From Bacilli bacterium (GTDB lineage Bacteria; Bacillota_I; Bacilli_A; ML615J-28; CAG-698): DNA of 52,549 nt. Both the position numbers and the translations under genes were made by a program. The notes under the pieces were generated by a model. That model searched no databases. It saw only the letters and a program-made list of their open reading frames with translations, and had not been told where the DNA came from. Location of the stretch: contig JAGCUR010000010.1 of the NCBI GenBank assembly GCA_017962745.1, positions 1 to 52,549 of the forward strand. The letters run 5' to 3'. This document shows positions 27,330-29,385 of this stretch, piece after piece. Positions within the stretch are counted from its first letter, which is position 1. Every line of letters begins with the position of its first letter.

Positions 27330-28088
27330 ATGGAAAAAAGAAATTTATATGGCACATGGGTTACCACAAAACTAATCGCGCATCGTGGCTTTCACGATAA
27401 TAATTCTGATGCACCTGAAAACTCCCTTGCAGCATTCAAATTAGCAATTGAAAATGGCTATGCAATGGAAATGGATGTGCAAATGAGTAGTGATGGCGTC
27501 TTAGTAGTATTTCACGATGATACTTTGAATCGCGTTTGTGGAGTAGATGGTAAAATTGCCGCTACCCCAATTGAAGAATTAAAGAAACTTCATTTATATA
27601 ATTCTAATGAACAAATCCCAACTATGGAAGAATTCTTGAATTTAGTAGATGGAAAAGAGCCAATTTTAATCGAAGTAAAAGATCATGCAAATATTGGTGA
27701 ATTAGAACAAAAATTAACTGATATGTTACATAATTATAAAGGTGAATTCATTATTGAATCATTTAATCCATTCATTATTAAATGGTTCTACCAAAATGCA
27801 CCTGAATTTGTAAGAGGTCAGCTATCAACTGACTTCAAGAATGAGAAAATGGCTTGGTATAAAAAGTTCTTACTTCGCCATATGATATTTAATAAATCAA
27901 ATCATTCTGAATTCATTGCATATGATGTAAGAGATATTAAGCGTCCGCAAATCAAACGCATTAAGAAGAAAATGCCAGTTTTAATGTGGACAGTAAGAAA
28001 ACCAGAAGAAATTAATGAATATCGTGAATATTTCGATAACATCATCTTCCAAGATTTTAAACCACGTGACTTTTTTAATGAAAAATAA
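27330..28088 (+). CDS. Glycerophosphodiester phosphodiesterase
   Basis: Cytoplasmic GDPD (UgpQ/GlpQ type), 252 residues, no signal peptide. It splits glycerophosphodiesters to glycerol-3-phosphate and an alcohol. Catalytic motifs: IAHRGF (His near residue 17), SDAPENSLAAF, EMDVQMSSDGVLVVFHDDTL (metal Glu and Asp, general His near 60), and IEVKD near 110. Followed by a strong terminator shared with the opposite-strand gene. Confidence 0.92.
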   Translation: MEKRNLYGTWVTTKLIAHRGFHDNNSDAPENSLAAFKLAIENGYAMEMDVQMSSDGVLVVFHDDTLNRVCGVDGKIAATPIEELKKLHLYNSNEQIPTMEEFLNLVDGKEPILIEVKDHANIGELEQKLTDMLHNYKGEFIIESFNPFIIKWFYQNAPEFVRGQLSTDFKNEKMAWYKKFLLRHMIFNKSNHSEFIAYDVRDIKRPQIKRIKKKMPVLMWTVRKPEEINEYREYFDNIIFQDFKPRDFFNEK

Positions 28089-28121
28089 AACAAAGGGCGA
28101 ATAATATCGCCCTTTATTTTT
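28085..28121. terminator. Bidirectional terminator
   Basis: Stem AAAGGGCGA (28092-28100) / TCGCCCTTT (28107-28115) with T-rich tails on both sides; serves the plus-strand GDPD gene and the minus-strand repeat protein. Confidence 0.88.
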
Positions 28122-28863
28122 ACTTATTATCTTTACTAATAATATATTTAAAGATCTTTTTAATATCTTTAGCATCCATAAATGGATATAAATGATCAAT
28201 GTTTACATATTGATATTTTCCTTTTATGTATTCATCCGCAAACTTTGATAAGCATTCTTGTGATACAAATGGTGCCATCTTTTTTAGCACTTTATTCTTT
28301 TCATGCTTTTCAATAGCATTAATGAATAATAAATCACAATCATCTGTGCATAAGAATGGTGCAATGATGACTAAATTAATATTTTTATATTCTTCATCAC
28401 CATCAAGAATCTTTTCTACCACTTCATGTAAGTCATCTTTATCCATATAAGGTAACATACGGTAAATTCTTGATGCTTTTGATTTAGGATTAGATGTTTC
28501 ATCTTTAAAGAAATCGGCTACTTGGGAAAAAGTTGCTTTGATTTCTTCTTTATTGATTCTTTTTTCGATTTGTTCACCAAGTTTATTGATCTTACGTTCT
28601 AATTTCTTGAAGAACTTTTCATCATCTTTAGCATCTTCTGCTTCAGCTTCATATACTTCTTCATCTTCATCTAATTCTTCATCATCTTCGTCTTCATCAT
28701 CATCAACATCTGCTTCTAATTCATCAAGATAATCATAGAAATCATCTTTTTCATCTTCATCAGTGAAAATTAGACCCGTTTTATCTTCAATATTAACAGC
28801 TTCATCAAAACTTATTTCTTTATAAATTACTTTTCCATCGACAATAGTTCTATTTAAAATCAT
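28120..28863 (-). CDS. Acidic linker protein with C-terminal tandem helical repeats, partner of XRE regulator
   Basis: I do not recognise this 247-residue soluble protein. Residues about 35-75 are extremely acidic (long Asp/Glu runs), followed by a charged helix (FFKKLERKINKLGEQIEKR) to about 115. From about residue 132 to the end I see four tandem units of about 28 residues, each with a hydrophobic-x-P-[FY] start and two helices: MLPYMDKDDLHEVVEKIL, IIAPFLCTDDCDLLFINAI, KMAPFVSQECLSKFADEYI and HLYPFMDAKDIKKIFKYII. The start codon overlaps the stop of the upstream XRE regulator by four bases (ATGA), so translation is coupled. The regulator's C-terminus seems to carry related units. A cofactor or antagonist of that regulator is a reasonable guess, not shown. 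Confidence 0.72.
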   Translation of the reverse strand: MILNRTIVDGKVIYKEISFDEAVNIEDKTGLIFTDEDEKDDFYDYLDELEADVDDDEDEDDEELDEDEEVYEAEAEDAKDDEKFFKKLERKINKLGEQIEKRINKEEIKATFSQVADFFKDETSNPKSKASRIYRMLPYMDKDDLHEVVEKILDGDEEYKNINLVIIAPFLCTDDCDLLFINAIEKHEKNKVLKKMAPFVSQECLSKFADEYIKGKYQYVNIDHLYPFMDAKDIKKIFKYIISKDNK

Positions 28864-29312
28864 TTTTGTGCTCCTTTAACTATATATTTTTGCTCTGTTG
28901 GAGTGAGTTTAGGATATAATTCGGTAAGGTCAGTATTTAATTTATCTTCATTAATTGCTTTTAGAATCATCATTCGCTCTAGTGGAGATAATTGATAAAA
29001 GATATTCGGAATATTAACAATTAACTTATTATTAATTATTGATTCAATAATAAATAATCTATTTTGTCCCTTAAATATATCATTTTCGTCCACATCGATA
29101 TCTTCATCTAAACAAAGCAAATCATCGATCGATATTTTAAATATCTTAGACATCGCAATCAAATCATCAGTTGATGGGATACCAATTCCGGTCTCCCATT
29201 TACTAACAAGTTGACGGGTGACAAACAACTTTTCGGCTAAATCGTCTTGCGTTAAGGCAAGTTTTTTACGGTTAGCCGTTATTTTTTTACCAACCTTTAC
29301 AAAATCTATCAT
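28860..29312 (-). CDS. XRE-family transcription regulator
   Basis: 150 residues. HTH at about 5-62 (RKKLALTQDDLAEKLFVTRQLVSKWETG, the common Firmicute HTH_3 type). After a short acidic hinge (DEDIDVDEND), the C-terminal 65 residues are helical; LSPLERMMILKAINEDKLN and LYPKLTPTEQKYIVKGAQK resemble the repeat unit of the downstream protein. Its own promoter is at 29335-29363. The target genes are unknown; autoregulation of the two-gene unit is likely but not visible as a clear palindrome. Confidence 0.85.
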   Translation of the reverse strand: MIDFVKVGKKITANRKKLALTQDDLAEKLFVTRQLVSKWETGIGIPSTDDLIAMSKIFKISIDDLLCLDEDIDVDENDIFKGQNRLFIIESIINNKLIVNIPNIFYQLSPLERMMILKAINEDKLNTDLTELYPKLTPTEQKYIVKGAQK

Positions 29313-29334: not shown

Positions 29335-29363
29335 ATTATACGCATCTAATTAAAAGGAGTCAC
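29335..29363 (-). promoter_or_regulatory. Promoter of the XRE / repeat protein pair
   Basis: Minus strand GTGACT (29358-29363), 17-base spacer, TATAAT (29335-29340). Confidence 0.6.
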
Positions 29364-29385
29364 GCAACGCTAAGTTGCATATCAT

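Follow-up and report, generated by a model that had tools for sequence, protein, structure and literature searches.

In many Mollicutes-related bacteria there is a conserved, unnamed control module, composed of an XRE regulator and a co-translated acidic solenoid partner, whose probable targets are its own operon and, in several species, ABC export pumps. The module was recovered from the window, i.e. the whole stretch of DNA analyzed here (1-52,549; 52,549 nucleotides), where all of its parts lie on the minus strand. The regulator gene (28860..29312; 150 aa) is present in the list of open reading frames, matches HTH_3 and is kept together with the partner gene (28120..28863; 247 aa). The regulator stop and the partner start share an ATGA, upholding the coordinates and the translational coupling put forward in an earlier note on this DNA. 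With a promoter on the 5' side (GTGACT-17-TATAAT, 29335..29363) and a terminator-like hairpin 3' of the partner gene (28087..28120), the two genes look like a complete two-gene operon, neighbored by a glucokinase-like gene and a convergent phosphodiesterase-like gene, both functions as read from translations. Immediately upstream of the promoter is a candidate operator, the inverted repeat GCAAC-TTAGC-GTTGC (29364..29378), which is followed by GTGA (to 29360).

The regulator is of the XRE type, as HTH_3 of Pfam scores 48.6 bits in the window protein, versus a cut-off of 23. Its Cro/CI-type HTH domain, supported by the HTH_3 match and AlphaFold2, spans residues 4-65 (29118..29303) and contains the recognition helix VTRQLVSKW. 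Foldseek returned mainly HTH relatives, with P22 c2 at a TMt of 0.84 and the SinR/SinI complex 1b0n among the HTH-level fold matches; outside the HTH, no match was found in Pfam, NCBIfam or the PDB. In the AlphaFold2 model (pLDDT 90.8) the HTH is succeeded by a lone helix and two hairpins (101-107/110-121 and 129-135/138-149) placed 28 residues apart, and profiles together with the model identify this C-terminus (residues 85-149; 28866..29060) as the lone helix and two hairpins of a repeat shared with the partner. The hairpins are not always required, as HTH-only regulators exist: those of one lineage comprise 72 aa (L046, L048 and L051), and L040, of 76 aa, is also of this kind.

The partner was modelled by AlphaFold2 from an alignment of 38 homologues at a mean pLDDT of 87.7. 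It opens with a folded strand/helix domain (residues 1-54; 28702..28863), continues with a hyperacidic linker of low confidence (residues 50-76; 28636..28716) and with helices at 78-123, and ends in four helical-hairpin units (residues 129-246; 28126..28479), defined by model and alignment and reaching a pLDDT of about 91-98. These are indeed the four units starting with hydrophobic-x-P-[FY] that had been recognized from the sequence, and LPY, APF, APF and YPF each fall on a modelled hairpin. The N-terminal domain is present in a subset of relatives and, in a search of the window's own genome, occurs a single time, whereas most partners are the four-unit solenoid alone. Invariant residues correspond to structural P/F positions, and a catalytic pattern is absent. 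The repeat is not recognized by Pfam, NCBIfam, PHROGs, PADLOC or the PDB. In overall shape, a helical-hairpin superhelix, the partner resembles PUF, MgtE-N and HEAT-like alpha solenoids, which are the weak matches retrieved by Foldseek; none of the Foldseek matches is below E 0.4, however, no close solved relative was retrieved, and HEAT, PUF and MgtE_N were found neither as Pfam models in the partners scanned nor in the PDB profile search.

That the two proteins share a helical repeat had been proposed from a comparison of two strings, which would not have convinced by itself. Using profiles, hhalign aligns the partner with the regulator profile at a probability of 93% (E 2.8e-7), and 38 partners with 40 regulator C-termini at 96% (E 3.8e-9, score 52.5), while the best of 150 column-shuffled decoys reaches a score of 18.6, the reversed C-terminus 15.1 and the HTH part 13.9. 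Congruent with this, the partner profile directly matches C-termini of regulators from relatives in genome searches and the locus scan, at E 1e-3 to 1e-5. An HMM of one unit, applied to the window regulator by itself, is however not significant (-1.0 bits, shuffle p 0.36), and the claim thus rests on the family profiles: it stands at the family level, through the profiles and the AlphaFold2 hairpins, but not for the window regulator searched with a single unit.

The pair is conserved well outside this genome, a point that the earlier note had asked to be checked, and occurs in many families. A match at E<=0.001 was obtained in 15 of 100 relatives and in 58 of 394 sampled genomes of the class, with Candidatus Izimaplasma ZiA1, Acholeplasmatales, Haloplasmataceae and 'Mollicutes' MAGs among the named carriers. 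For 44 of 47 distinct partner genes an XRE gene is located directly upstream on the same strand, frequently overlapping; the remaining three are the second partner of a tandem (L050), a broken gene (L053) and a gene at a contig edge (L061). In the first of these cases (G362) the partner gene is tandemly duplicated, and the first copy has more than four units. Distances among regulators and among partners correlate (r 0.62, permutation maximum 0.15). Moreover, HTH and repeat are fused in a single open reading frame in 11 distinct proteins, such as L011 (342 aa), and these natural single chains support that regulator and partner work together. Neighboring genes are kept within families, which suggests vertical chromosomal inheritance: L006, L008 and L010 have flanking transporter and membrane-protein genes in common, and L009, L012 and L013 adjoin the same ribosomal-protein-like gene (all names as read from translations). 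A phage origin was considered and rejected, as the window partner has no relative in IMG/VR and another partner none in INPHARED. Plasmids searched with a fused protein yielded partial matches of less than 60% identity, the best of which span the HTH and some of the following sequence. No earlier description of the pair was found in the open-access literature, in line with what had been supposed.

Upstream regions of the pair operons contain the inverted repeat GCAAC-N5-GTTGC. The form CAAY-N5-RTTG is found ahead of 38 of the 45 pair operons, where first-order Markov resampling predicts 0.5, and the strict form ahead of 28 of the 45, with 0.005 expected by the same procedure. In most operons the start of the -35 hexamer lies 14 nt after the first C, and a 16-17 bp spacer separates the hexamer from the -10 box, placing the operator center, reckoned from the -10 box, at about -43. 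The region near -43 is where CI-type activators sit, as at lambda PRM, and repression from there is possible as well. Judged by position, the candidate operator would suit activation no less than repression, and the partner could consequently be a co-factor, a sensor or an anti-activator. Across 40 pair-bearing genomes CAAC-N5-GTTGC-K-TG occurs 49 times, compared to 2 for a backward control, and the phased pattern gives about 95 matches versus 22 for its control in 38 of these genomes. Exact sites in the window genome are limited to the module's own operon and a zinc-ribbon XRE gene at a contig end. The idea that the operator is specific to the pair was rejected, since zinc-ribbon XRE genes are also preceded by it; members of this XRE family, which has Zn_ribbon_2 at the C-terminus, were seen with the pair's operator, mostly in phase, at L109:3638 (G000 contig C6:168637), L144, L145, L147 and L168. 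The pair regulators and the zinc-ribbon XRE family may read one DNA site and cross-talk.

The phased operator also precedes seven exporter operons, a small sample, in six pair-bearing genomes other than that of the window. Two-gene heterodimeric ABC exporter operons are found in G019 (L187), G050 (L123), G053 (L186) and G155 (L183), and twice in G076 (L185 and L181), and an ABC-2 exporter operon in G150 (L188). Pfam detects ABC_tran and ABC2_membrane_6 in exporter operons (L123, L131, L134, L138 and L127), the exporters at L181 and L183 being recognized by similarity of their translations to Pfam-scanned ones; of the exporter operons, L183 has the poorest promoter match. Further candidate targets comprise a membrane protease of the CAAX type (L133), a small membrane protein (L122) and an MFS-like transporter (L182), and other phased sites are self sites or lie inside genes. 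Many pair-bearing genomes have the self site only, and in the window genome the search likewise gave no exporter site. At 40 sites inspected in further genomes, most of which fall within genes or ahead of zinc-ribbon XRE genes, no such exporter was present; one of them (L178) is situated 116 bp ahead of the gene of an unrelated ABC ATPase and has no good promoter match. The tail bases of the exporter operators (GTGA or TTG) match the genome's own operator in G050, G150, G053 and one of the G076 operons, and differ from it in G019.

The conserved pair, the shared repeat, the fusions, the phased operator and its placement before exporters are established at the level of sequence, and we lean, if only slightly, towards interpreting the module as a split, autoregulated transcription factor, an XRE regulator whose activity would be set by the co-translated solenoid partner. 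The XRE protein is predicted to bind the GCAAC-N5-GTTGC palindrome that adjoins the -35 box of its own operon on the upstream side; in several relatives it would also bind the same palindrome at export-pump operons. Its C-terminal hairpins would bind the co-translated partner, which is of the same hairpin type, in a direct contact probably mediated by the shared repeat, the two parts being joined in one chain in other species. From the operator center at about -43 and the imperfect -35 boxes we infer activation rather than repression. The partner would represent the regulatory half, deciding whether the DNA-bound regulator is active, and probably answers a signal, be it a compound or peptide that the pumps handle or the state of the envelope, that may be sensed via the solenoid or the variable N-terminal domain. 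Sensing of pump substrates is suggested here by analogy with TipA/AlbA (PMC6078987). As a wider proposal, which we offer tentatively and with less than even confidence, XRE protein and alpha-solenoid sensor may constitute a new family of split one-component regulators, with the repeat on either chain or fused and forming a joint superhelix, where an antimicrobial or envelope signal turns on ABC exporters in wall-less-related Bacilli.

Other readings overlap with that of a split regulator, and the likelihoods we attach to them are not mutually exclusive. As other XRE genes have a similar recognition helix and the same operator, the exporter sites could belong to a paralogue: XRE proteins with the same recognition helix would read them, and the pair would regulate itself only and have its role elsewhere. 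The pair's operator ahead of zinc-ribbon XRE genes and the window genome lacking an exporter site agree with such a division, yet we consider it rather unlikely, as exporter sites turned up exclusively in pair-bearing genomes, zinc-ribbon XRE genes are also present in pairless genomes, where the inspected sites had no such exporter, and most exporter-operator tails follow the genome's own operator. SinR/SinI of Bacillus subtilis offers a different precedent, with adjacent genes and an XRE HTH protein whose C-terminal helical element is common to the partner. By such a scheme the regulator would assemble into homodimers or higher oligomers by way of its C-terminal hairpins, and the partner, built of the same hairpins, would compete for that surface and remove the regulator from DNA, the operon thereby limiting its own repression or activation. 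Indeed, the regulator's C-terminal element is present in the partner (E 3.8e-9), the genes are adjacent and coupled, a candidate autoregulatory operator is available, and 1b0n is among the HTH-level matches. Fused HTH-repeat chains are nevertheless hard to square with a purely dissociating antagonist, the HTH-only regulators L046, L048 and L051 offer no hairpins to compete for, and a sequence relation to SinI was not found in Pfam, NCBIfam or the PDB, making the scheme unlikely in our view. Unlike in SinR/SinI, the element shared here is a hairpin of about 28 residues that is repeated, a larger partner is encoded downstream, and fusions of the two occur.

The acidity of the partner had also prompted the idea of DNA mimicry, according to which its acidic stretch would occupy the DNA-binding face of the regulator. 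The stretch, described as 40 residues long, is real, with D or E at 17 of 20 positions (50-69) of the window partner, but its dense part falls short of that length; overall acidity is common to all partners, with pI values of 4.2-5.2. Against mimicry, a run of at least 16 acidic residues in 20 is present in only 5 of 38 partners, AlphaFold2 models the stretch as a low-confidence linker rather than a conserved, folded surface, and the majority of partners lack anything but the solenoid. The hyperacidic stretch is a lineage decoration, and mimicry is very improbable. We judge it just as improbable that the module is a type II toxin-antitoxin system with the partner as toxin of an XRE antitoxin: the order of antitoxin and then partner, the overlap, the candidate autoregulatory operator and the type of regulator would all suit it, but the partner has no toxin-family match, its invariant P/F residues are structural and form no catalytic pattern, the neighborhood is kept within families, and single-chain fusions exist. 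Anti-phage defense was likewise tried and rejected, PADLOC matching only the HTH and nothing in the partner.

Returning to the split regulator, lambda CI activates PRM from an operator just upstream of -35, where the candidate operator is located here too. Regulators of the lambda CI and P22 c2 type are the closest HTH relatives by structure and sequence; in contrast to these, the present regulator has a hairpin-solenoid C-terminus and a partner protein, and it is chromosomal, with no phage relative found in IMG/VR or INPHARED. TipA/AlbA combines a MerR-like HTH with a helical-repeat drug-binding domain and has an HTH-less short form (PMC6078987). The module likewise pairs an HTH protein with an HTH-less one built from the same helical repeat, and a link to drug response is a further point of likeness. 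However, the HTH is of the MerR type there and XRE here, the short form is an in-frame product whereas the partner has a separate gene, and the repeat described here lacks a sequence match to any solved structure.

Four elements go beyond the earlier note: the operator, the exporter regulon, the fusion of both proteins into one chain, and a folded domain at the N-terminus of the partner. This regulatory module is common yet unannotated, and because its operator is readable the regulon is directly predictable. The operator ties the module to heterodimeric ABC exporters in Mollicutes relatives, where efflux regulation is little studied, and a repeat that moves between two chains provides a clean natural example in which to study how one-component regulators come apart into pairs.

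Several variations of the arrangement were also encountered. In the window genome GCAAC-N5-GTTGC with mismatches in the tail precedes two other XRE genes (L110:3654 and L111:2207), one of which precedes an MFS-like transporter gene. One genus (L054, L056, L058, L059 and L060) is without the operator and has small lysine-rich open reading frames immediately upstream of the regulator. At L160 (G216 contig C10:12226) the pair's promoter and operator remain without a full regulator reading frame, apparently a relic of the module. Finally, G019 (L116/L119; contig C22:120949) has a second exact operator some 190 bp farther upstream than that of the regulator, immediately ahead of a short basic open reading frame of about 30 aa (MRKNFKKKTKRYY...).
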